Of a stretch of DNA of 64,000 bases, positions 18,000 through 30,175 are shown in pieces (positions within the stretch are counted from its first letter, which is position 1; each line of letters begins with the position of its first letter). This stretch comes from Streptomyces sp. NBC_00820 (GTDB taxonomy: Bacteria > Actinomycetota > Actinomycetes > Streptomycetales > Streptomycetaceae). The stretch lies in NCBI RefSeq assembly GCF_036347055.1, contig NZ_CP108882.1:7800001-7864000 (forward strand), read 5' to 3'. Position numbers and translations under genes: made by a program. The notes beneath the pieces are model-generated. The model saw only the letters and a program-made list of their open reading frames with translations. It was not told the origin of the DNA and searched no databases.

Positions 18000-18485
18000 G
18001 TGCCCGAGCGTGCTGCCCATGCCGAGATCCCCGACCGCTACCGCTACGCCGTGATCCCGCACATCATGGTCGACGACGCCGCCGCGGCGATCGACTTCTA
18101 CCAGCGGGCGTTCGACGCCCGTGAGAACTTCAGGCTCGGCGCCCCGGGCGGCGGGATTCTCCACGCCGAGATCACCATCGGGAAGTCGGCCCTGATGCTG
18201 GGCGACGCCGGCTTGGACGAGGCGGAGAACGCCTCCTTCGCCGCGCCGACCGCGCTCGGCGGAGGCACGTCCGTCACGCTGCACGTCTTCGTACCGGACG
18301 TCGACGGCGTGGCCGAGCGCGCGGAAGCCGCCGGCGCCGAGATCCTGCAGCCGCCGAAGGACATGTTCCACGGCGACCGCACCGTCATCCTCAAGGACCC
18401 CTCGGGTCACATCTGGGTCTTTCTGACCCACGTGGAAGACGTCTCGCAGGAGGAGATCCGGCGCCGCCTGTCCGCTGCCGGGTGA
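18000..18485 (+). CDS. PhnB-like VOC protein
   Basis: A 161-residue glyoxalase-superfamily protein of the PhnB-like type. Landmarks are VIPHIMVDDAAAAIDFYQRA, ILHAEITIGKSALMLGDA, the VTLHVFVPDVDGVAERAEAA strand-helix and FHGDRTVILKDPSGHIWVFL. It probably binds or transforms a small molecule, but substrate is unknown. The GTG at 18000 has a strong AAGGAGG site five bases upstream. A 200-bp gap separates it from yczR, and a convergent lipase gene ends 158 bp downstream. Confidence 0.88.
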   Translation: MPERAAHAEIPDRYRYAVIPHIMVDDAAAAIDFYQRAFDARENFRLGAPGGGILHAEITIGKSALMLGDAGLDEAENASFAAPTALGGGTSVTLHVFVPDVDGVAERAEAAGAEILQPPKDMFHGDRTVILKDPSGHIWVFLTHVEDVSQEEIRRRLSAAG

Positions 18486-18642
18486 CCGGCGGCCGTACGC
18501 GGCTGCCGGCCCGCGTACTGGCCGCCGCACGCGATTGTCGGTCCGCGTACCGGGCGCCGTTGCGACAGGACCCCGCCGACCGAACCGCCCGTACGCGGCA
18601 GCTCCGACGAACCAAGGACGGCAGACCGCGACCCCCGTCTCC

Positions 18643-20142
18643 TCACACCCCCGCCGACCGGTCCTCCAGCCCCTCGGGTGCGGCCTGGCCGGGCGGCGTC
18701 ACCAGGACCATCTGGGACACCCGGTTCCTGTCCCTGCTGTGCACCGTGACCCGGTAGAGGCCCGGTTCGTCGACGCGGGCCGTCGCCGTGAGGCGGCGGT
18801 TGTGCAGCGAGAGCCGTGCGGGCGGCAGCGCCGTACCGTCGACGGCGTCGATGCGGCAGGTCACGCCGGACGGTGACGCCAGGCCGCTGATCGTCATGGT
18901 CCACGGCGTGCCGGCCTCGGCGAGGTCGGGCGTGCTCAGCCCGCAGCCCGCGCCGCCCATCGGAGGACCGAAGTGCCTGTCGCGGCGCACCAGTTCCTCG
19001 ACGGCGCGCAGGGCGAACCGGTCGGCGGCGACGGCGCCGTGCTGCAGGGGGAGGGGAGTGGTGACCGAGTCGAGGGAGGCGGACTCCGTGGACACCGTGC
19101 CGTCGCCCTCGCAGTCGAAGGTGGCGAGCTGCCCGTCACCGCGACGGATGAAGGAGCCGTCGCTGTGGCGACGTGCCGTGTGGCAGTGGGCGTGGACGGT
19201 CCCGTTGTCGATCGACAGGCTCTGCGTCGTCTCCTGACTGGTCCCGATGAAGGCGTGGTGGCCGGGCAGAGCGATGGCGATCCGTTTGGCGGCGTCGTCC
19301 GCGGCGAGGCGGGCGAGATCCGGGTCTCCTCCGATACCGGCGACGTCACCGGGCGTGAGACGACGGGCCTCACCCCTGTCGAGCAGACAGGCGTACTGCG
19401 GAAGCAGGTCGTGCAGGCCGGGCATCGTCGCGCACAGATCCCGCAGCTTGCCGTGGGGGAGCGGTACGGGAGCCCCGCGGCCGCTGTTGAGGATGGAGGC
19501 GGCCGCGACCGCCCCGTAGAAGGGGGTGCCCAGGGTGAGGACGGCCCGGGTGTCGGCGGCCAGATCCGAGTCGTGCAGAGGATCGAGAGCGGCCTGGGTC
19601 ACCAGCCCTCCCATCGAATGGGAGACGAACACCAGGCGCGCCGGAGCCGCGTCCCGACGGAGCCGGCGGGCGGCGTCATGGGCGGGATGACCGCGCCAGC
19701 TCATGAGATGTGCGCGAGCGGCCGCGGCGAGGCGCCGGCCGTTGACCGCGACCGGGAGACGCCAGTCGTAGGGGAACTCCAGTACGGAGGCGGGGTCGGG
19801 CACGCACCGGCGCATCGTGGCGGCCAGCTCGGTGTAGGGCTCGAAACCCCTCAGGTACGGCGTCCAGGCGGAGTGACGCAGGAGCTGGGTCGGGACGATG
19901 CGCCCGACGCGTCCCTCGAGTTCGTCGTCCGTCATGCGCAGTGCCGCCAGACCGTCACGGCTCGTCCAGGCCGAGACCAGCCAGCGCGTGCCGGACAGGC
20001 CCCAGACGAGCCGGCCGGTGGCCGTGTCGAGAAGCTCGCTGCCCATGATGCCGGGCACGACGACGACGGCGTCCTGCGTGACGTTCCCGCTCGCGGGTGA
20101 CGCGTCGTCGGGATTGGCCGATCGGCCGGTCGCGTAGTTCAT
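18643..20142 (-). CDS. LCAT-like lipase/acyltransferase, cytosolic
   Basis: A 499-residue alpha/beta hydrolase of the lecithin:cholesterol acyltransferase-like class. VVVVPGIMGSELLDTATGRL opens the fold, FPYDWRL follows, and LVFVSHSMGGLVTQAAL is the nucleophile elbow with serine in SHSMG. Catalytic Asp and His are probably in the region from CEGDGTVSTESASLDS to QHGAVAADR. After about residue 420 an Ig-like beta domain follows (LYRVTVHSRDRNRVSQMVL). It lacks a signal peptide, so it should act inside the cell, unlike secreted esterases. Its ATG at 20142 is only 20 bp from the divergent caspase/STAND gene, pointing to linked regulation and perhaps membrane-damaging effector function. Confidence 0.82.
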   Translation of the reverse strand: MNYATGRSANPDDASPASGNVTQDAVVVVPGIMGSELLDTATGRLVWGLSGTRWLVSAWTSRDGLAALRMTDDELEGRVGRIVPTQLLRHSAWTPYLRGFEPYTELAATMRRCVPDPASVLEFPYDWRLPVAVNGRRLAAAARAHLMSWRGHPAHDAARRLRRDAAPARLVFVSHSMGGLVTQAALDPLHDSDLAADTRAVLTLGTPFYGAVAAASILNSGRGAPVPLPHGKLRDLCATMPGLHDLLPQYACLLDRGEARRLTPGDVAGIGGDPDLARLAADDAAKRIAIALPGHHAFIGTSQETTQSLSIDNGTVHAHCHTARRHSDGSFIRRGDGQLATFDCEGDGTVSTESASLDSVTTPLPLQHGAVAADRFALRAVEELVRRDRHFGPPMGGAGCGLSTPDLAEAGTPWTMTISGLASPSGVTCRIDAVDGTALPPARLSLHNRRLTATARVDEPGLYRVTVHSRDRNRVSQMVLVTPPGQAAPEGLEDRSAGV

Positions 20143-20162
20143 GAGCGTGAACAATAGGGAGC
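20143..20162. promoter_or_regulatory. 20-bp divergent intergenic promoter region
   Basis: Only 20 bp separate the two start codons. On the minus strand, TATTGT (20156-20151) is a possible -10 box that would start the lipase mRNA within a few bases of its ATG. The promoter elements of each gene must extend into the other's coding sequence. A GGGAGC right before ATG 20163 is too close to be a normal ribosome site, so that mRNA may be leaderless. Confidence 0.4.
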
Positions 20163-23100
20163 ATGTATCCAGAGGAAGGGGATAATCCGGAAGATCGCCA
20201 TCAGGCTGGTACGCATGCGGTAATAGACGGTCCGCCGGCGGATGCGGGCGTCCTGGCGGTGATCGCCGTGGACGACCCGGACACCCGTGGTTTCGCCGAC
20301 GCCATCCGCCTGCAATTGCAGGTGGTACGGCAGTGGTGGGCGCCACCCTCCCCCGGAGGGTTCAGCGAGTGCCGCGTCGAGCCGCACGCCCGGCACGACG
20401 TCGAACGCTTCCTCCACGAGCAGCGGTTGCGGGAGACCCCCCAGCACGTGCCGCTCGTCCTCTTCATCTCCTCGCACGGCGTGCTGGGCCTGTCCCAGCG
20501 CCACTTCCTCCGGCTGCCCGCCACCGAGTTCGGCCGACTGCTCGCCACCGGCATGCCGACCAACGAAGCGGTCGTCGCCGCACTGGACTCCCATGCCCGT
20601 GACGTGCTGGTCATCCTCAACGCCTGCCACGCCGAGGGTATCGGCGCGGAACTGGAGCTGTGGAGACGTGACTTGGCGCTCGACAGAAGCCGTAGCCTCA
20701 ACGTCATCGCCACCACCGACACCGACTCCCAGGTCCGGGCACTGGAGTTCGCCACCATTCTGGGCAGGGCCTATGAACGGCTGCGTGACGTCAACGAGAT
20801 CACCCGTCCTCACCTCACGATCGACGAGTTCATCGAGGCGCTGGAGGACGCGACCGCGGATACCAACGCCGAACTGGGCCTCACCGACCCCGAGGAGATG
20901 CTGCCAGGTCCCCAGCCGGTACTGAAGTCGAGACCCGGCAGGCAGCCGCTGCCGACCCTGCCCAACCCCGGCTACAGAGCGCAGCGTTCACTCCTGCCAC
21001 CCGAACGCGCGGAACTCGCCGTACCCTTGGCCGAGTTGGACGCATGGCTCGCGCCGGAAAGCCACCGAGACCCCCTCTGGTACCTGAACGGACGTTCCTC
21101 ACTGACCCGGTCGATGACCGAGTTCCTGCACCGACGGGCCGGCGCCCTCATCGTCACGGGGGCAGCCGCGACCGGCAAATCCGCCCTCCTCGCCCGCACC
21201 GTCACCCTGAGCGAGCCCGCGACGCGCGACGACGCCACCTACCGACGGGCGATCGACTCCGCCGACGACGGCTGTGTGCCACCCGCCCAGGCCGTCGACG
21301 TCGCCGTGACGGCACGCAACCGCGGCTGCGTGAGCCTGCTCGAAGCCATCGCCACCCGCCTGCCCGGACCGCCTCCGCCTCCTCCCGCGACCGGCAGCGA
21401 CCCCATGCGCCACTGGCAGGACACCCTCGCGGCGGCGCTGCGCGTTCCCGACGAGCGGCCGCTGACCGTGGTGATCGACGCCTTCGACGAGGCCACCGAC
21501 CCCGCCGCCTGCCTCCGCGACGTCCTGCAGCCTCTCGTCACCGCCTCGCGCGGCCGCCACCGCAAGGACCCGCCGGACATCACCATCCCCGCACAGACCA
21601 CGTCCTCCCACTCCCCGACCGCGGCGGGTCGCCCGTTACGCCTCGTCCTCGCGGTACGCAGCAACACACCCCACCCCACGGAGGCGGACGGCAACACACC
21701 GGATTCCGGCCTCCTCGGGCAACTGCGGACCGCCCTGCCGGCCGCGACGCTCCTGCGCACCGACACCGCCGCCGTGACACAGGAGATCCCGGAATACGTC
21801 TTCGCCCTGCTCGGAACCGCCTCATGGGCCCGCACACAACACGAACGGCGCGCCGAGGCCTCCAAGGAGATCGCCTCACTGGTGGGCCGTTCCTTCCTCG
21901 ACGCGCGGCTCGCCGCACAGCAGCTCATCGAAGAGGGCCCCCGGCAACTGCGCGATCCCTTCTGGCGGACACGCGCACGCGCCGGCACCCTCGGCCTGTT
22001 CCAGGAAGACCTGAAGCAGATCGGCGAACTCGACCCGCACGGGGACGCCGTACTCGCCCTGCTGCGCGCCACGGCCTTCTCCCTGGGCCGGGGCCTGCCC
22101 TGGGCGGCGATCTGGCCCGCCACCGCCCAGGCCCTCACCGGTCGTCCGATCCCCGATGTCGATTCACATATTCAGCGACTTCTGAACGGCCGCCTCGCCG
22201 GGTATCTCACCCACGACATCGAGGACGACCGCAGGGTGTACCGGCCGGCTCACCACCAGCTCGCCTGGCTGCTGCGCCACTGGCCGACCGAGGGGGAAAC
22301 GGCTTTGAGCCAGCCGGAACAGGACGCCTCACCCGATCCCGCCATCCAGTTACCCGATCCCGCCATCCAGCGCGCGCACGAAGCCATCACCGACGCCCTG
22401 GCCCCGCTGGCCGGCCGCGACGCCGGCAAACAGCCACACCCCTATCTCGCCAGGTACCTGGCCCGGCACGCGGCGCTCGCAGGCGTCCTCGACGACGAGC
22501 ACCTTCCGCCCAGCCTGCTGCCCTGGGTCGCCGGCGACGCCGTACGAGGACTGCTGCGCCTTCCGCACCGCGGCCGCGGCAACCGCTGGTGGCTGCACGC
22601 GTGGGCCGCCATCGAGCCCTACATCCAGCACGCCGACCTCCCCTCGCGCTGCTCCAGCCTCCATCTCGCCCACACCGCCATGCGCTTCCCGGGCCTGCCC
22701 GCGGCGGCCATGCCGGCCGGCACCACCGCCCTGCACGGCTCACAACTACGGGTGCTCTGGTCGCGGTGGACGCCTCCCTCCAACGTCCTGGCCACCGTCA
22801 AAGGGCGCTTCCTCGCCATGACGGCACTGAGCGACGGCACACGCCAACTGATCGCGCTGGGCAGCGAAACGGGCGTCGTCGACCTGCTCGACGCCACCAC
22901 CGGCGCCGTACTCGGTGATCGCATCCGCGCCCACGACGGCGCGGTGCGCTGCCTCGCCCTGATCCCCGACGGCGTCCGCACCGTCCTCGTCTCCGGCAGC
23001 ACCGACGGAACCGTCCGCATCTGGGACGCCGCCGGACGCCTGCTCATCGACCAACTCGTCAACCGCCCCAACTGGACCGCCGCGCTGACCGGTTACCGAG

Positions 23101-24653
23101 CGGCGTCCGGCGAGATCACCGTCATCGCCATCGACGGCCAGGGCGAGGTCATGGGCTGGAACGACCGCGACGGCGCGTACGAGCTGACCAGCCTGCGCCC
23201 CCACCCCGCCGAACCCTCGGCCTTCGCCACCCTCGTCACCCGTACGCGCGACGGCCGCGACGTCCTCGTCTGCGCCGGCCACACCCTCACCGTCCGCACC
23301 ACCACGACCGGCGAACTCCTCGCCGAACACGCCCTGAGCGCCGCCGTGAGAACCCTGACCGGCACCTCCGTCCCGGGCCAGATCGTCGCGGGTCACCACG
23401 ACGGCACCCTCACCTTCTGGACCCTGCCCGACACCGCCGGCGACCACATCCCCGCAGGCGACCACGCGATCACGGCACTGGCCAGTCTGAGCTGCGACGG
23501 CGTACACCTCGTCGCCGTCGGCCGCGGCAACAGCATTGACCTGTGGAACCTCACCACGCGGACCAGGGCCGGATCCCTGACCGGCCACGCCGACACCGTC
23601 ACCGCCCTGCACCCCGCCACCGGCACCCACGACACCGTGCTCATCTCCTGCTCCCACGACAACACCGTCCGTACCTGGACCGCGGACGCCGTGCGCAACG
23701 CGCTCAAGGGAGCAGTCCCGGCCCCCGCCGCGCTCGCGGCCGCCTCCACCAGCACCGACGCGTCGAGCCTGCGTCTGGCCGTCAGCTACCCCGCCGTCAT
23801 CCAGGTCTGGAACTCGCGCACCGGCACGAGTGAGGCCAGCATGACGCTGCCCTCGGGACGGGCCGTCACAGCCCTCGCCTGGCACGAGCACAACGGCGTA
23901 CAGCAACTTCTCTGGGCGTCCGACGACTTCACCATCCGCACCTGGCAGCCCCTGGCCCCCGACACGGGTCTGCGCGTCCTCCCCGTCCTCGGCGGCCACC
24001 AGCAGAGGATCCACAGCCTCGCCCTGTGCACCGACGGAACACGCCGGCTCCTGGTCAGCGGCGGCGACGACTACACCGTCCGCCTCTGGGATCTGTCCGC
24101 CGGTCATCTGCTGAAGACCTGGCCCCACGAATACAGCGTCCGCGCCGTCACCGCGTGCACCGACCGCTCCGGCCACGTCTGGATCGCCTCCGGCAGCGCC
24201 GACGGCACCGTCCGCCTCTGGTCCCCCGACCACGACCTGCCCCGCCGCCGGCTCCGCTGCGACCAAGGCGTCATCAACGCGCTGGCCATCGACCCCCGCA
24301 ACGCCGACGGCCCGCACCTGGTCACCGCCGGCGACGACACCCTGCGCGTATGGAACCTGACCCACCCGGCCGGCGACAGCACCCACCTGCGCGGCCATAC
24401 CGACATCATCGAAGCCGTCACCGCCTGGACCAGTCCGCGCCCCCGGCCCCGCGCCTACCTCGCCAGCGCGTCCCGGGACGGTACCGTCCGCGTCTGGGAC
24501 GCGACGACCAGCCGATGCGTCCTCCAACTCGCCGTGGGAAACCGCGTCCACACCCTCACCGCGCATCCCGGCACGGAACCCGCTGTCACCACGCTCACGC
24601 TCACCGGGGACGCCGGGGTGGCCGTCGTGGAGGTCCACCTCGAAGGGTGGTGA
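20163..24653 (+). CDS. Caspase-like protease / STAND NTPase / WD40 conflict-system protein
   Basis: A 1496-residue multidomain protein. Residues about 30-240 form a caspase-like (C14) protease domain with the dyad His105 (LFISSHGVLGL) and Cys155 (VILNACHAEGIG). Residues about 300-650 form a STAND/NACHT-like P-loop NTPase: Walker A GAAATGKS at 333-340 and Walker B LTVVIDAFDEA around Asp439. A helical arm follows, then WD40 repeats from about 873 to the end, roughly fourteen blades (repeats ending VRIWD, VRTWT, IRTW, VRLWD, VRLWS, LRVWN, VRVWD), enough for two propellers. Known relatives are predicted sensors that oligomerise on an invader signal and activate the protease, causing cell death or proteolysis. 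It is divergent from a lipase and followed by a RES/Xre toxin-antitoxin pair. Confidence 0.9.
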   Translation: MYPEEGDNPEDRHQAGTHAVIDGPPADAGVLAVIAVDDPDTRGFADAIRLQLQVVRQWWAPPSPGGFSECRVEPHARHDVERFLHEQRLRETPQHVPLVLFISSHGVLGLSQRHFLRLPATEFGRLLATGMPTNEAVVAALDSHARDVLVILNACHAEGIGAELELWRRDLALDRSRSLNVIATTDTDSQVRALEFATILGRAYERLRDVNEITRPHLTIDEFIEALEDATADTNAELGLTDPEEMLPGPQPVLKSRPGRQPLPTLPNPGYRAQRSLLPPERAELAVPLAELDAWLAPESHRDPLWYLNGRSSLTRSMTEFLHRRAGALIVTGAAATGKSALLARTVTLSEPATRDDATYRRAIDSADDGCVPPAQAVDVAVTARNRGCVSLLEAIATRLPGPPPPPPATGSDPMRHWQDTLAAALRVPDERPLTVVIDAFDEATDPAACLRDVLQPLVTASRGRHRKDPPDITIPAQTTSSHSPTAAGRPLRLVLAVRSNTPHPTEADGNTPDSGLLGQLRTALPAATLLRTDTAAVTQEIPEYVFALLGTASWARTQHERRAEASKEIASLVGRSFLDARLAAQQLIEEGPRQLRDPFWRTRARAGTLGLFQEDLKQIGELDPHGDAVLALLRATAFSLGRGLPWAAIWPATAQALTGRPIPDVDSHIQRLLNGRLAGYLTHDIEDDRRVYRPAHHQLAWLLRHWPTEGETALSQPEQDASPDPAIQLPDPAIQRAHEAITDALAPLAGRDAGKQPHPYLARYLARHAALAGVLDDEHLPPSLLPWVAGDAVRGLLRLPHRGRGNRWWLHAWAAIEPYIQHADLPSRCSSLHLAHTAMRFPGLPAAAMPAGTTALHGSQLRVLWSRWTPPSNVLATVKGRFLAMTALSDGTRQLIALGSETGVVDLLDATTGAVLGDRIRAHDGAVRCLALIPDGVRTVLVSGSTDGTVRIWDAAGRLLIDQLVNRPNWTAALTGYRAASGEITVIAIDGQGEVMGWNDRDGAYELTSLRPHPAEPSAFATLVTRTRDGRDVLVCAGHTLTVRTTTTGELLAEHALSAAVRTLTGTSVPGQIVAGHHDGTLTFWTLPDTAGDHIPAGDHAITALASLSCDGVHLVAVGRGNSIDLWNLTTRTRAGSLTGHADTVTALHPATGTHDTVLISCSHDNTVRTWTADAVRNALKGAVPAPAALAAASTSTDASSLRLAVSYPAVIQVWNSRTGTSEASMTLPSGRAVTALAWHEHNGVQQLLWASDDFTIRTWQPLAPDTGLRVLPVLGGHQQRIHSLALCTDGTRRLLVSGGDDYTVRLWDLSAGHLLKTWPHEYSVRAVTACTDRSGHVWIASGSADGTVRLWSPDHDLPRRRLRCDQGVINALAIDPRNADGPHLVTAGDDTLRVWNLTHPAGDSTHLRGHTDIIEAVTAWTSPRPRPRAYLASASRDGTVRVWDATTSRCVLQLAVGNRVHTLTAHPGTEPAVTTLTLTGDAGVAVVEVHLEGW
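22330..22371. repeat. 21-bp tandem duplication in the STAND-protein linker
   Basis: Two near-identical 21-bp units encode SPDPAIQ then LPDPAIQ in the linker between the NTPase arm and the next helical region. The units differ only at their edges. This is a recent in-frame duplication or slippage product. Confidence 0.8.
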
Positions 24654-24915
24654 GCACACGAACGCGCGCCCCCCTGGATGCCCACACGCGCCCCACGCCC
24701 TGCGCCAAATCACGCCACATCGAACCGATCCATCCCCAAGAATGATCGTTCGGCATCGGCTCACCAGGGAAGAGCCCGCCGCGGCAGGCGCGCACCATCC
24801 CGAGGCCGACGCACCCACCAGTAGACCGACACAGCCCGGGCATGCCCCACGCCACGGTACGCGGCCCGGCCACACGGCGGGCGCGAACCACGCGCCCGTC
24901 CCTAAGGAGCGGCGC

Positions 24916-25602
24916 ATGTCCCAGGAGACGTACCCGGAGGTACGCCTTGTCCCGGCCCCCGAACGCGGAGTCTGGCACCTGGGCAAAGCGAAGGATCCTC
25001 TCAGGTACAACCAGATCGCGGCCGACGACGCCGACCGCTCCAGCGGCAACCGGTGGAGCCTGGTGAGCGACGGAACCCTCTACTGCGCCTCCGAGTTCGA
25101 GGGCTGCTTCGCCGAAGCGCTCGCCCCCTTCCGGGTCGCACACGAACTCCGCGACGTCATCAAGGACGACTGGCTCAAGCCCTCCTACATGCCACCAGGA
25201 CACCTGCCCCGCGACTGGCGCACCCGCCACACCCTGGTGCGGCTCATGCCCGACAAGGACGCCCGCTTCCTCGACGTCGACGACGAGGACACCCTCTGCG
25301 GCATCCAGCGCGCACTCGAACCCACGCTCGCCGAACTCGACATCGAAAAGCTCACCCACGAACACATCCAGGGCTCCGACCGTCGTATCACCCGCACCAT
25401 CGCCGCCTGGGCGGTCGCCCAGCAGAACCGCGAGCAGCGCCCCCTCATCAGCGGCATCGTCTACCGCTCGCGCTTCGCGGCACGCGAATGCTGGGCCGTC
25501 TTCCAGTCCACCGAACTGGCGGAAGTCGAGTCCCAGCCCATCTGGCCCGAGACGGAGGGCCTTCGGACTGTAGCCGAGGAGTATGGACTCACCATCCGCT
25601 GA
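24916..25602 (+). CDS. RES-domain toxin (predicted NAD+-degrading)
   Basis: A 228-residue protein with RES-domain features: an early Arg, YNQIAADDADRSSGNRWSLV, GTLYCASEFEGCFAEALAPF with Tyr and Glu, and LISGIVYRSRFAARECWAVF with the serine-bearing strand. Studied RES toxins degrade NAD+ and stop growth until neutralised by an Xre-type antitoxin. The ATG at 24916 follows AAGGAG and begins the conserved part; the upstream 174 bp of open frame is not protein-like. The likely antitoxin gene is 573 bp downstream, an unusual order and distance. The gene lies 262 bp after the caspase/STAND gene on the same strand and may belong to the same defence island. Confidence 0.82.
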   Translation: MSQETYPEVRLVPAPERGVWHLGKAKDPLRYNQIAADDADRSSGNRWSLVSDGTLYCASEFEGCFAEALAPFRVAHELRDVIKDDWLKPSYMPPGHLPRDWRTRHTLVRLMPDKDARFLDVDDEDTLCGIQRALEPTLAELDIEKLTHEHIQGSDRRITRTIAAWAVAQQNREQRPLISGIVYRSRFAARECWAVFQSTELAEVESQPIWPETEGLRTVAEEYGLTIR

Positions 25603-26175
25603 CCTCCCCTCTCTTCCCCCGCTGAACCCCCTCGGGTCAGCACCTGAATACGCATAGCCCAAACGAACGAACCGCACTACCGCAACAGAGCCCCAACCAC
25701 CCCGCCCAAACGGAAAACCCGCATGTCACGGTCCGAAGTACTGCACCGTGGACGGTGGTTAAGGCCGACGAGCGCAACGGCGCATTGAGGCGAATCGCTG
25801 GAGAAGCGGGTGGGATATGGCTACCGTGACGGTACGCGAAACAGGAAGGGACCACTATGGACCCCACCCTCAGCGGCTCACCGCCCGCATGCTCAGGCCC
25901 CCGGCACACAGCCCCTCACGGCCACCCACCGGCCGCGCGCCCGCCGCATCCCCAGGCGGCACACCCTCTCTGAGCCACCAGCGCCGCCCGCCGCACGCGC
26001 CCCCCAGCCGGCCAAGGGACGCAGCCGGCACAACCCCGGCACGCACCCGGCACAGCACCACTCGGCGCCCCCCACCACCACCACGAAGACGACCGATCCG
26101 CTCGCGACCACCCGCTGTCTGACCGACGACCGCGCAGCCCCGGCCGGCGTCCGTCACGACACAAGGGAGACACTC
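25603..26175. other. Gap between RES toxin and antitoxin, with a possible 38-codon leader ORF
   Basis: No clear gene is seen in 573 bp. The first 200 bp are comparatively AT-rich for this genome. At 25857-25973 a 38-codon frame (beginning MDPTLSGSPPACSGP) has a strong AGGAAGGGA site about six bases upstream. It is Pro/His/Ala-rich and could be a leader peptide or chance. The open frame that continues into the antitoxin from 25810 is low-complexity and judged untranslated. Confidence 0.4.
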
Positions 26176-26574
26176 ATGATGCCCACCGCCAAACCGACCG
26201 CCACCAGAAGCGACGAAGCCGCCGCCAAGGCGCACCTCACCACCGTGCGCATGTCCATCGCCGACATCGCCAGGTTCCTCCAGGACAACCTCGGCCAGCG
26301 GCTCACGGCACGCATCACCAACCTCAGTGATCATCGTCAGGTCGGCAAGTGGGCATCGGGGGAGAACACGCCAAGGCCCGAAGCGGAGGAGCGCCTGCGC
26401 GCGGCACTCCAGGTCTTTCAACTCATCCAGGACGCGGAAAGCCTCTACACCGCGCGCGCCTGGCTGATCGGCATGAACCCCCAACTCGACGACCAGGCCC
26501 CCCTCAGCGTCATCGCCGAGGGCCACTACCGCGACGTCATGGCAGCGGCACGCGCCTACGTCGACGGAGGCTGA
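26176..26574 (+). CDS. Xre/MbcA/ParS-like antitoxin
   Basis: A 132-residue protein. A helical N-terminal part (IADIARFLQDNLGQRLTARI, NLSDHRQVGKWASGENTPRP) resembles an Xre-like DNA-binding helix-turn-helix. The C-terminus has the toxin-binding pattern LYTARAWLIGMNPQLDDQAP followed by SVIAEGHYRDVMAAARAYV, as in MbcA/ParS/Xre antitoxins that block RES toxins. The ATG at 26176 follows AGGGAG; an adjacent ATG at 26179 is an alternative. It probably neutralises the RES protein upstream and represses their shared region. The reversed gene order and 573-bp gap are atypical, so pairing is inferred. Confidence 0.72.
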   Translation: MMPTAKPTATRSDEAAAKAHLTTVRMSIADIARFLQDNLGQRLTARITNLSDHRQVGKWASGENTPRPEAEERLRAALQVFQLIQDAESLYTARAWLIGMNPQLDDQAPLSVIAEGHYRDVMAAARAYVDGG

Positions 26575-26697
26575 GCGCACACCCGGCTTGAGGCCCCCTC
26601 GTCAGGGGACGCTCGTCAGGGGACGACAACTTCCCACCGCCGCTGTGAGAACGGAAAGACGCAAACAATCCGCAGCGCGCCGCTAAGCTTCCCCGTC

Positions 26698-27597
26698 ATG
26701 CCCACAACAGCGCGTAGATCCGCCCTCGGCACCGCCGCTCTCGCCCTGTTCCTCCTCGCCGGCACCGGCTGTTCCTCCGGCTCCGGCCAAGGCGACGGCG
26801 ATTCCGGAGTGCTGCGGGGGCTGAGCACTCTTGCCGAAAGCAACGGCTCGAACGGGGTGAGCTATCTCGACGCGGCCAAGGCACGCGAGTTGAGAAAGGG
26901 TGACGAGAAGCGGTTCGCTCTCGTCGCCCGGCCTGGCAGCGGTCTGCTGACCGAGTACGAGCCCGGGCCGCTGTCACAGCACGTGAAGGTCACACAGATC
27001 GACACCGCCGTCGACACGAAGAACGCGGGCCACTGGGAGGGCTCGTTCGACGCGGCCGCGATCACCGCCGCGCTGAAGTCGAACGGGTACCGGCAGAGCG
27101 GGGACGGCCGGACCTGGACGCGGACGGGCCGCACAGGCCCCTCCTTCCAGATCTCGGAGGATGAGATCTCGTACTCCTCACAGGGCCGAACGCCCATGGC
27201 GGCCGTCCACCCCGAGCAGGGCGCCTCGCTGGCCGACGAGAAGGAGTTCCGGCGCGCGGCCGAGTGCCTGGGAGACACCTACTGGGCCGACTTCAGTCCC
27301 CTCAGCTCCACGAAGCCGGTACGTCTGTCCGCCGTCGGCCAGCTGGCCGCCTCCTCCGCCAAGAACACCGAGGTGCTGTGCCTCGTGGTCAAGGACGCGG
27401 CGACCGCCAACCGTGCCGCGGCCAAGCTGCGTTCGGTGGTTCGGACCAGGTCGCCGAAGTTCGACGGCACGAAGGTGACCGTCGAGAAGGGCGACCAGCC
27501 GCTGGTACGTGCGGTCGTCCCGGACACGTCCGCCCAGCGGGCGGGCCGCCTGGTCGTCACCGATCTCGAGCTGTGGATGTCCACCACGGAACTGTAG
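26698..27597 (+). CDS. Secreted lipoprotein of unknown function
   Basis: A 299-residue protein with a type II signal peptide: basic MPTTARRSALG, hydrophobic core, and lipobox LAGTGC with Cys25 lipidated, then a Ser/Gly-rich linker. The mature part is about 270 residues, soluble and mixed alpha/beta, with two cysteines (ECLGDTYW and EVLCLVV) that could form a disulfide. No known domain is recognised. It should be anchored on the outer face of the membrane. It is separated from the antitoxin by 123 bp with its own likely promoter. Confidence 0.75.
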   Translation: MPTTARRSALGTAALALFLLAGTGCSSGSGQGDGDSGVLRGLSTLAESNGSNGVSYLDAAKARELRKGDEKRFALVARPGSGLLTEYEPGPLSQHVKVTQIDTAVDTKNAGHWEGSFDAAAITAALKSNGYRQSGDGRTWTRTGRTGPSFQISEDEISYSSQGRTPMAAVHPEQGASLADEKEFRRAAECLGDTYWADFSPLSSTKPVRLSAVGQLAASSAKNTEVLCLVVKDAATANRAAAKLRSVVRTRSPKFDGTKVTVEKGDQPLVRAVVPDTSAQRAGRLVVTDLELWMSTTEL

Positions 27598-27611
27598 GAC
27601 TCCGGCAGCAT

Positions 27612-27655
27612 CGCGTGTCCGCGTGTCCGCGTGTCCGCGTGTCCGCGTGTCCGCG
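27612..27655. repeat. 8-bp CGCGTGTC tandem repeat
   Basis: Five exact copies of CGCGTGTC followed by CGCG occupy 44 bp just after the lipoprotein stop. Simple slippage repeat. Confidence 0.9.
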
Positions 27656-27768
27656 CCTTCGCCAGGAGGCGGTGGCGGTGGCGGTGACTGAACTCGGCGA
27701 GGTCCTCCCCGCCGCGCCGACCACGTCAGTGCCCGAGCTCCAGGCAGCCCCGACACGGATCGTGAACC

Positions 27769-28233
27769 ATGCCCGCTCTAGCCGGCCCGATGACGGACGA
27801 CGAGACTCTCCGGGCCGGTGACGTGCTGTCGATCGCCTGTCCTTTCACAGCGGCCAGAGTCGAACGGGGTGTGACCTGGGACCATGTGTCGGTGCGCTGG
27901 CCGTGGTGTACGGGTTTCCCCCTCAACCCGGGTGACGGGATCCCGTTCTCCATCGAACTGCTGATGCGGCCGTACGCCTTCCTCGGACCGGGAGACGAGG
28001 TCGCCGACGCGGCGGGGCGGGCATGGCGATTCGACGGGCCCTGGGACTGGGCCCCGTTCGACGGAGAGGGGCCCGGCGCAGGCCCCGAGTGGCCGCTCGT
28101 CCTGCTGACCCGCTCAGGGACACCGTGCTCCGACTCGGACGCGGAGACAGTGGCCGCGGGCACGGCAACCGGCTCCCACCAGGAGACCGTCCGACGCTGG
28201 ATGTCCCTCACCGAGGCTTCCCCCACGCCCTGA
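27769..28233 (+). CDS. Hypothetical protein (154 aa)
   Basis: A small, acidic, soluble protein with conserved-looking ETLRAGDVLSIACPFTAARV, WDHVSVRWPWCTGFPL and AWRFDGPWDWAPFDGEG. The Trp-rich central part suggests a compact beta domain. No family is recognised. ATG 27769 gives the longest form; ATG 27790 (starting MTDDETLRAG) is equally likely because neither has a good ribosome site. It is 172 bp after the lipoprotein. Confidence 0.55.
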   Translation: MPALAGPMTDDETLRAGDVLSIACPFTAARVERGVTWDHVSVRWPWCTGFPLNPGDGIPFSIELLMRPYAFLGPGDEVADAAGRAWRFDGPWDWAPFDGEGPGAGPEWPLVLLTRSGTPCSDSDAETVAAGTATGSHQETVRRWMSLTEASPTP

Positions 28234-28299
28234 CAACAGGACCCTCGCTGACACGGAATCCGACCGTCACCGACGAAGCGCCTTCAATAGGCTCGGCCC

Positions 28300-28665
28300 A
28301 TGTGCACCTACGCCTTCGTCCACTACAAACTGCACTACGCGTGCGTGTCGTGCCGGATCAGCTTCAAACGGCATCCCAACGGCACCAGAGGGCACACGTG
28401 CCCGAACTGCGCCGGGCCGCTGCTGTGCGCCGGCCACGACTTCGCGGCGCCCCGCCGCGGCAACCGGAAGGCGTGGTCGGTCGTCGCGGCGGTCCTGAAC
28501 GCGGGACTGCGCTACGACGGCTTCGAGCCGTGCGGCTGCGGACGGGACCCGAAGTTCCGCCCTCGCACCCGCGCCCAGCTGCGCGCCCGCCTCATCGCCG
28601 CGGCCCGCACCGGCACCCCGCCGGCGCAAGTGCTCAGCCGCCCGGATCCACTGGAACCCCGGTGA
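28300..28665 (+). CDS. Small twin-CxxC zinc-ribbon-like protein (copy 1)
   Basis: A 121-residue protein with CVSC (near residue 15) and CPNC (near residue 35), the two knuckles of a probable zinc ribbon. Then come GHDFAAPRRGNRKAWSVVAA and a CGCGRDPKFRPRTRAQLRAR basic tail. The same layout occurs in the shorter protein at 46706-47032, so the window has two members of one actinobacterial family. Function is unknown; a nucleic-acid-binding role would fit the ribbon plus basic tail. The start is ATG 28300. Confidence 0.75.
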   Translation: MCTYAFVHYKLHYACVSCRISFKRHPNGTRGHTCPNCAGPLLCAGHDFAAPRRGNRKAWSVVAAVLNAGLRYDGFEPCGCGRDPKFRPRTRAQLRARLIAAARTGTPPAQVLSRPDPLEPR

Positions 28666-28773
28666 CACGGGCGGCACTCGGCACGGCGAACCGGTCCCAA
28701 CTCCCCGCCCCCCACACGCACACGACCGGCAGTACAGCCAGCATCAGTTGACGCCGGTCGGTACCGGCGGACG

Positions 28774-29652
28774 TCAGTCGGTGTCGGTGGCCGCCAACAC
28801 GGCCAAACGCCGGCGATCCGGAGCAAGGGCGGCCAGGCCGATGTCCCAGGCCACTTGCTCGAACCACTTCGTGTCGGCATCGAAACCGTGCCAGACGCAG
28901 TCCCGTACCTGTGGTTCCACCTCGTCGGGGGTGGCGCCCTCCGGGCATCCGGCCAGCGCGGCCAGAGACCGCCAGGCCGCCAGACGGCCATAGGCACCGA
29001 AGGAACCGCGGCTGTACGCCCCTCCCGAGGACGCGGCACCGAAGACGACTCGCCATGCCTGGGCCGGCGGGAGGACAGTGACCGAAAGCGCGGCTTTCTT
29101 CCCCGCTCCGCGCAGACAGTCCAGCCCCGGCGTTAGCAGCGCGGCCGGGACCGACGCGGGGTCCAGAGGCTTCGCGAGATCGAAGCCCCGTGCCTCGATA
29201 CGCCCGTTGGACTCCTCGGCCCAGTTCGCCACGGCCGTGGCGATGACCGTGGCGTCGGCTTCCGTCGTCGTCTCCTGCGCCGAGGAGCTACGGACGCCGG
29301 TGAGCACAGCCGGTTCGCGGCTCTCCGACGGCCCGAACGGCATCGAGTGACTACTGCCGCGGCTGCTGTACCTCGGCAGGTCGGACCGGCTCTCGATGTC
29401 CGACCGCGTCAGGGGAAGCCCGCCCAGCGGATGACGACGCCAATGCGACGACGTCGCCCAACGGGCGATCCCCGGTATCTCTGCGACGGCGATGCCCCTG
29501 AGGACCAACTCGTGAACCAGGCAGCCCCGAAGCTCCTCCGAAGCGTGCCCGGTGAACGCCACAGCCAGATTCGCGGCGTCCTGGCCGGAGGCGAGCAGTG
29601 AGGCCGCGTAGCGATCCAGCGTCCGGCCGTTCGCCTCCGCCGAGGAGATCAA
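28774..29652 (-). CDS. DUF6183-like protein, start uncertain
   Basis: The frame encodes about 293 residues with helices EELRGCLVHELVLRGIAVAE and YAASLLASGQDAANLAVAFTG, and a C-terminal section VFGAASSGGAYSRGSFGAYG, AWRSLAALAGCPEGATPDEV. I associate these with DUF6183-type Streptomyces proteins of unknown function. No ATG or GTG starts the conserved part; TTG 29652 is a candidate and the longer frame to 29823 is poor in protein character. The 5' end may be lost, so this could be a truncated gene. It diverges from the gene at 29753. Confidence 0.5.
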   Translation of the reverse strand: MISSAEANGRTLDRYAASLLASGQDAANLAVAFTGHASEELRGCLVHELVLRGIAVAEIPGIARWATSSHWRRHPLGGLPLTRSDIESRSDLPRYSSRGSSHSMPFGPSESREPAVLTGVRSSSAQETTTEADATVIATAVANWAEESNGRIEARGFDLAKPLDPASVPAALLTPGLDCLRGAGKKAALSVTVLPPAQAWRVVFGAASSGGAYSRGSFGAYGRLAAWRSLAALAGCPEGATPDEVEPQVRDCVWHGFDADTKWFEQVAWDIGLAALAPDRRRLAVLAATDTD

Positions 29653-29752
29653 TGGACATACAGACGCTTGACTCCTACGAACCTCGATCGGCGACCACGC
29701 CGACCGGGCTGCGGGGCTGCGGGGCTGCACGGCACTACGTGATACTTGCCCT

Positions 29753-30175
29753 GTGCAGTGGTACGAGCGGGCGCAGGAGGCGGAACGGGACCAGAATTGG
29801 GATGTGGCCATCGCGTTGGTCACCGCCCACGCCGAATGCGTCTCCGTCGATCCCTACAGGCACAACAACCACCTGTGGCACATGGACCTGCTCGCCCGCG
29901 CGGAGCGCCTCCCCGAACTCGCGGAGCTCGCTCTCACGGATGCCCATGCCCGCCGGAGACTCAACAGGGCGTTTCGTCGACGGGGGATGGTTCCGGAACT
30001 GCGCAGCCGAGCCCGGAAAGGCGACCGTGACGCTCTGTACGTCCTCGTCCGACTGCTGTGCGAGACAGACCGAGCCCAGGAGGCATCCCAGGCCGTCCAG
30101 GACTACGGCCCGGAGGACCAGTACGCCCGCGAGATCGTCGCCGGCCTTCGAACGCCATCAAGCGCTGCGGAGTAA
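29753..30175 (+). CDS. Small TPR-like helical protein
   Basis: A 140-residue helical protein starting at GTG 29753 (MQWYERAQEAERDQNWDVAI) with repeated helix pairs, including RNAFRRRGMVPELRSRA-like and DALYVLVRLLCETDRAQEAS segments, compatible with two to three TPR-like units. No enzymatic motif is seen. It resembles common small Streptomyces proteins without known function. The preceding sequence has a GCTGCGGG triplet repeat. Confidence 0.65.
   Translation: MQWYERAQEAERDQNWDVAIALVTAHAECVSVDPYRHNNHLWHMDLLARAERLPELAELALTDAHARRRLNRAFRRRGMVPELRSRARKGDRDALYVLVRLLCETDRAQEASQAVQDYGPEDQYAREIVAGLRTPSSAAE

Follow-up and report, generated by a model that had tools for sequence, protein, structure and literature searches.

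Which genes does a bacterial caspase with an NLR-like sensor work with, and what might it cut? To our knowledge, few substrates of bacterial caspase-STAND proteins have been found. The question is raised by a gene of Streptomyces sp. NBC_00820 in a stretch of 64,000 nucleotides (contig NZ_CP108882.1, positions 7,800,001 to 7,864,000), which we call the window and whose numbering is used throughout. A single open reading frame (ORF) on its forward strand, 20163..24653, encodes a protein of 1496 amino acids that joins a caspase domain, a STAND-type NTPase, and a WD40 beta-propeller. The original prediction took this protein for a defense or cell-death sensor whose partners are poorly described. 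The first part was a fair and partly supported guess; the partners, however, proved to be identifiable and conserved, namely, a RES-domain toxin, an MbcA-like antitoxin, and an LCAT-like hydrolase.

The caspase domain spans about residues 28 to 275 (20244..20987). The modeled N terminus has a caspase fold, as seen in the AlphaFold model and its structural matches in the PDB, among which is the SAVED-CHAT filament 8tl0; the predicted fold around His105 and Cys155 thereby passed the structural test proposed for it. The profile check proposed along with it yielded nothing for the caspase domain, residues 1 to 300 having no match to Pfam Peptidase_C14 at an E value of ≤10, and Pfam alone was therefore set aside as a basis for the domain. 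The NCBIfam model NF047832 (caspase_w_EACC1) scored 31.4 bits (E = 1.2e-7), far under its curated cutoff of 140 bits, and neither the caspase domain nor the RES proteins had a true relative in sequence searches of the PDB. The catalytic residues His105 (20475..20477) and Cys155 (20625..20627) are both present in the ORF, as predicted, and are invariant in 120/120 proteins and likewise in 76/76 rows. Because the dyad is unchanged in all 120 proteins, the protease activity of the caspase-STAND protein seems to be under selection.

The middle of the protein (21060..22322) carries the expected Walker A (residue 333, 21159-21182) and Walker B (residue 436, 21468-21491) motifs, with their key residues kept in 120/120 proteins. 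Pfam matches to this region were all below threshold; what identifies it as a STAND NTPase is a P-loop NTPase with both motifs placed between an effector and a repeat sensor. That sensor, the WD40 region (22800..24650), is an ORF of its own in 27 of the 34 loci labeled as having RES and is fused to the caspase-STAND part in the other 7, window included. Of 28 split loci, L059 included, 20 have a start codon that overlaps the stop codon by 4 bp. Two loci of Streptomyces sp. ISL-10 (L049 near 10191 and L069 near 12064) have a caspase-STAND frame that stops at a TGA, and the WD40 sequence continues in the same frame right after it. PADLOC 2.0.0 reported only HEAT-ARM_XIII, via residues 1189-1403 in the WD40 part, and, with six pieces, only PDC-M16A at chance level (E = 0.081); none of its defense models matched the N terminus, the RES ORF, the hydrolase, or the antitoxin ORF.

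The architecture by itself is already known. Metacaspase-NACHT-WD40 proteins, which have the same domain order, are called widely distributed in the covered part of PMC3501461; no RES-Xre partner is described in that part, and the window protein has Asn at the S1 position. What is new is the cassette around the caspase gene, in which a divergent hydrolase gene, the caspase-STAND-WD40 gene, a RES gene, and an antitoxin gene follow in conserved order.

The RES gene (24916..25602, forward strand) encodes a protein of 228 amino acids with a Pfam RES match (E = 1.5e-10, 41.8 bits against a cutoff of 23.2). It is a predicted NAD+ phosphorylase; many of its relatives carry the NCBI name RES family NAD+ phosphorylase, and, judged by its family, the protein would phosphorolyze NAD+. 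Its putative R-E-S residues, R46, E67, and S185, were mapped by a weak profile alignment; across 40 rows, the Glu and the Ser are each kept in 40/40 and the Arg is kept in 32/40. RES is not always the next gene, since in L056 and L119 it lies at least 1.5 kb past the WD40 ORF.

The antitoxin gene (26176..26574, forward strand, 132 amino acids) follows after 573 bp. The idea that the 254-amino-acid ORF at 25810-26574 is an unknown protein was rejected, because conservation does not extend to its N-terminal part and the start of the gene lies near 26176. Single-sequence matches of the antitoxin are weak (PF09722, E = 0.042, below the cutoff; NF049845, E = 0.014). A profile of 34 sequences, window included, found one PDB sequence at an E value of ≤1, that of MbcA (6fkg_C) from the MbcT-MbcA complex (E = 2.7e-4). 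The structure model (pLDDT 92.2) is compact from residue 11 onward, and each of the ten top PDB matches is a chain from a RES-type toxin-antitoxin (TA) complex: MbcT-MbcA, NatRT, Xre-RES of P. putida, or VPA0770-0769. None of these structural matches has an E value below 0.001; the best is MbcA (2.3e-3, probability 1.00), and chain lengths suggest that the remaining matched chains are the antitoxins of their complexes. An Xre/MbcA/ParS-type antitoxin thus lies near a RES toxin, as in RES-Xre TA systems, and it would be expected from these families to bind RES. Farther on, none of the other loci compared has a relative of the gene at 26698-27597, and a DUF6183 protein (28774-29823, reverse strand, Pfam E = 7.1e-122) is encoded downstream of the cassette.

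On the other side, the reverse-strand gene at 18643..20142 diverges from the caspase gene, with a gap of 20 bp upstream of the caspase start. It encodes an LCAT/PGAP1-like alpha/beta hydrolase of 499 amino acids (Pfam LCAT, E = 7.5e-7, 29.1 bits against a cutoff of 21). The serine of its HSMGG motif is S176, and HSMGG is present in 42/42 aligned rows.

To what extent do these four genes stay together? The survey covered 199 Streptomyces genomes and then named genomes (the best 80 of 133 kept, with 77 loci). Matches to the caspase-STAND query, mostly weak and partial, occurred in 59/199 genomes. RES was found in 11/199, the same 11 genomes whose caspase-STAND matches rank highest. We defined a caspase clade as the 36 nonduplicate loci with a caspase-STAND score of at least 725 bits. 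RES lies downstream in 34/36 of them, and the two without it have less than 2.4 kb of contig left; the comparison is therefore 34/34 clade loci with enough contig versus 0/48 outside, where two of the 48 (L113 and L124) have less than 5.5 kb downstream. Among the other 55 rows, RES occurs in one, L059, which is a broken-contig piece of a clade member. The antitoxin is present in 33/36 clade loci and the contigs of the other three end, making it 33/33 where the sequence suffices. The hydrolase is present in 35/36; the exception, L082, has 32 bp of upstream sequence. In a FastTree tree of 84 rows (34 with RES, 48 without, and L066 and L078 unlabeled, their contigs ending), the RES label arose by one change with a local support of 99, in a run that gave a long-branch warning. 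The tree left out the duplicates L049, L051, L057, and L058 and the partial or short rows L059, L102, L118, L139, L128, L133, and L136. This constant linkage of single origin hands both families, RES TA systems and caspase-STAND proteins, a directly testable partner, and the cassette is almost certainly a functional unit.

Such constancy could also be read to mean that the caspase-STAND-WD40 protein is a keeper rather than a trigger, a co-antitoxin that binds RES or holds the TA complex and whose loss frees the toxin. WD40 propellers commonly bind proteins, and RES is constantly linked downstream, as this reading would have it. We nevertheless consider it improbable, given a dyad whose invariance points to selected protease activity and an antitoxin that is already there in every locus with enough sequence.

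The flanks of the loci are mostly different, with 21 of 528 locus pairs sharing any ORF (≥150 amino acids) at >50% identity and 13 of these 21 being among close strains; therefore, the cassette moves as a unit. One subgroup (L054, L080, L081, L083, and L094) has common flanks, and the start of a flanking ORF in L080 (3718-5283) looks by eye like what we take to be a contractile tail sheath protein. The caspase-STAND query matched 27 plasmid records, all from Streptomyces, and RES matched 36, of which 20 are from Streptomyces; the entire cassette is on a plasmid of NBC_01276. RES had no match among phage records. Herbiconiux and Dietzia plasmids carry relatives of the two TA genes with the antitoxin first and RES second, and the 12 kb shown has no annotated caspase in a gene table that describes itself as incomplete. 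In the Streptomyces cassettes, the toxin comes first and the antitoxin follows after 319 to 814 bp (34 gaps measured, gene starts being approximate), so the close, antitoxin-first order of the stand-alone relatives is absent from the cassette. The existence of such RES-antitoxin pairs on other actinobacterial plasmids, with no caspase annotated nearby, makes the cassette's pair look like a TA module that was captured. Those same pairs, together with the cassettes on Streptomyces plasmids, might speak for a plain addiction module of plasmids or islands to which the STAND gene is adjacent by chance, but 34/34 linkage, a single origin, and a conserved order make this very improbable.

RES-Xre TA systems (MbcTA, NatRT, Xre-RES of P. 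putida, and VPA0770-0769) likewise pair a RES-domain toxin with an antitoxin of the MbcA/NatR/Xre fold. The stand-alone relatives examined have the antitoxin and then the toxin, whereas the cassette has the toxin, a long gap with a leader ORF, and the antitoxin, and it adds a caspase-STAND-WD40 sensor and a hydrolase. As far as the covered part of PMC11535050 goes, none of the RES TA systems has been implicated in immunity.

Which partner, then, might the caspase serve? The S1-pocket position two before the catalytic cysteine, Asn153 (20619..20621), bears on this question. Position Cys-2 is presumably that of Asp462 in MALT1 and Asp211 in TbMCA2. Three regions set S1 specificity in clan CD, and one of them is loop L4, which contributes Gln184 in caspase-7 (Cys186), Asp462 in MALT1, and Asp211 in TbMCA2 (PMC4357240, covered in part). 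Asn is found in 38/38 RES-clade rows, a count that places L066, L078, L102, and L118 in the clade although their contigs end. Outside the clade, Asp is found in 36/38 rows and Asn in 2/38 (L095 and L130), both of which have the hydrolase and lack RES. A motif script, with 10 loci unreadable (L130 included), gave Asn in 39/39 readable hydrolase-linked loci and Asp in 40/41 readable others; the sole exception is L082, the RES-clade member without upstream sequence. In the 120-protein set, P0049, P0050, and P0065, which are possibly outside the clade, likewise have Asn.

We therefore rejected the view that the Asp-to-Asn change arrived with RES, as the change follows the hydrolase link. Hydrolase-linked loci that lack RES have Asn as well, so the residue does not mark RES or the antitoxin as a new substrate, and the case for an S1 pocket retuned toward the antitoxin is weakened. 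Outside the RES clade, the hydrolase lies beside the caspase-STAND genes of L095, L128, L130, and, more distantly, L141 and L142, so the hydrolase-caspase pair may predate the RES link; L128 has just 4.5 kb downstream, which makes the absence of RES there unsure. In L141 and L142, the hydrolase is on the same strand as the caspase-STAND gene. Taken together, the hydrolase and the caspase look like an older pair that the RES module probably joined, and the probable role of the hydrolase is that of an older, second effector directed at the membrane.

The same correlation allows a different arrangement, in which the caspase may really work with the hydrolase, as its own effector or substrate, and the RES-antitoxin pair would be a later parallel effector or the maker of a signal (NAD+ loss or ADP-ribose-1''-phosphate) read by the STAND protein. 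The Asn that tracks the hydrolase, and the hydrolases that adjoin the caspase family where RES is missing, would fit this arrangement. It is nonetheless rather unlikely in our view, because no locus of the RES clade with enough sequence lacks either partner and one of the supporting loci is the doubtful L128.

We prefer a caspase-triggered toxin circuit, which would run as follows. The WD40-STAND protein would stay inactive until it binds a trigger, such as phage or another stress; judged by other STAND proteins, it would then oligomerize on ATP and activate the N-terminal caspase. The caspase would inactivate the MbcA-like antitoxin or free RES from it in another way, the freed RES would destroy NAD+, and the cell would arrest or die. 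A role of the cassette in triggered arrest or death is probable, and the complete circuit, with RES freed from its antitoxin and NAD+ lost, is plausible, if a little short of an even chance. In the NatR-NatT system, the C-terminal helix of the antitoxin fills the active site of the toxin (PMC11535050, covered in part); thus, cutting the antitoxin could free the toxin. No cleavage site was found, and the compact antitoxin model speaks against one; that the antitoxin is the caspase's substrate is possible but somewhat doubtful. If it is, bacteria would have in the cassette a clear counterpart to caspase-triggered cell death.

Parts of such a circuit are familiar from other systems. The SAVED-CHAT protease acts as a switch. 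Conflict systems of multicellular prokaryotes reportedly include STAND-type NTPases and caspases. SAVED-CHAT and other caspase-like proteases of CRISPR defense share the caspase-fold protease with the cassette, but the cassette's sensor is STAND-WD40 and its linked partner is a TA pair. NTP-dependent conflict systems with EACC1-type caspases (NF047832) are the model that the window protein matches weakly, and conflict systems of multicellular prokaryotes are the subject of Kaur 2020 (PMC7159879, covered in part), in whose main text "RES domain," "Xre," "NADase," "LCAT," and "PGAP1" are all absent; the word "RES" is absent from the main text of PMC8195603. The LypABC or CARD-NLR-like system, which is toxic on overproduction, likewise combines peptidases with an NLR-like ATPase in a small system, but, unlike in the cassette, no RES-Xre module is mentioned in the covered part of PMC13236601. 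In the literature covered, largely other than subscription papers and in part only, we found no paper connecting RES-Xre with either a caspase or a STAND protein.

The gap between RES and the antitoxin (25603-26175 in the window) adds a possible layer of control. A promoter-like core, GAGT-N13..15-GGGTA, which we take to resemble Streptomyces stress-sigma promoters, is present in 33/34 gaps, the exception being the window, where a degenerate form lies at 25799..25827 (forward strand). In 31/33, the core precedes a start codon that has a purine-rich site, and in 22 this codon lies 54 nt after the core's first base. By a first-start rule, and with the core pattern and leader rule fixed after the alignments had been viewed, 26/31 of these leader ORFs have an in-frame TTA (bldA) codon within 15 codons, at 18 to 42 nt, and neither of the remaining frames has a TTA in any of the 31; chance would give about 1.2 loci, a figure that is a guide only, related strains being nonindependent. 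The leader ORF stops inside the gap in 28/31, after 18 to 102 codons. It is open to the gap end in L059, L080, and L083 and is in frame with the antitoxin in L080 and L083, so it could be an N-terminal extension there. A small conserved protein in this gap was considered and set aside, as the leader peptides do not look conserved. Farther down the gap, several relatives have by eye an inverted repeat, ACGCTTC..GAAGCGT, which could be an antitoxin operator. No Rfam family scored over threshold in 18000-29000.

TTA codons also occur in the cassette genes themselves, in 17/34 RES, 17/33 hydrolase, 14/34 caspase-STAND, and 1/33 antitoxin ORFs (with approximate gene starts), versus 15/243 flanking genes, a control of GC3-rich ORFs that are TTA-poor by choice. 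In the window, codons 492 and 730 of the caspase gene are TTA. These codons would couple expression to development in most relatives. They could also mean that the cassette serves developmental cell death rather than phage defense, with an internal trigger in ageing or differentiating hyphae and gating by the bldA tRNA, a reading to which the leader TTA, confined to one frame, and the excess of TTA over the flanks lend weight. TTA codons are, however, common in accessory genes anyway, the window's copy has none in its leader, and the patchy presence (11/199 genomes), differing flanks, and plasmid copies look like defense rather than core development, making developmental death unlikely, if not to be dismissed lightly.

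The caspase-triggered circuit can be extended to take in the leader and the hydrolase. The cassette would then be a bacterial "inflammasome" for a TA module, in which an NLR-like sensor proteolytically releases RES, a lipase-like protein is a second effector, the role is in immunity, and a bldA-reading leader before the antitoxin sets a hair trigger by developmental stage. This extended proposal is tentative and, in all its parts together, doubtful. If true, it would give RES-Xre systems an immune role, and the TTA leader would put a TA switch under the control of a developmental tRNA.

The window's own leader ORF (25857..25973, forward strand, 38 codons) has TCA at codon 8 and no TTA, downstream of the altered core. 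Its closest relative in the tree, that of S. cellostaticus, has TTA at codon 8, and its core differs by eye from the pattern. At position 21 of RES, the window has His, as in 2/35 loci, versus Arg in 33/35. This His21, the degenerate core, and a leader without TTA point to possible drift in the window's copy, although all four reading frames are open.

A second arrangement of caspase-clan proteases and RES is found in the same genome (5612193-5619457; L146, 7193-14457), where a C14 caspase gene faces an operon of a macro-like gene (E = 0.0015, under its cutoff), a gene for 219 amino acids, RES, and a CHAT caspase-like protease, the last 1 bp from the RES gene. Twenty neighborhoods were fetched from 40 places listed (33/199 genomes); RES reaches at least 54% identity in 14 other places, of which 12 are included. 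The 12 closer loci have the CHAT gene, the 219-amino-acid gene, and the C14 caspase in 12/12 and the macro-like gene in 11/12; the 8 more distant loci have CHAT-like ORFs in 6/8 and the C14 gene in 0/8. Caspase-clan proteases next to RES are therefore not confined to one layout, which suggests that they were joined to RES toxins more than once. The 219-amino-acid neighbor of this second RES gene is at most a candidate MbcA-type antitoxin: of three members, two have no Pfam family at an E value of ≤10 and the third matches Imm2 at 0.14, and the profile alignment is weak (E = 0.077).
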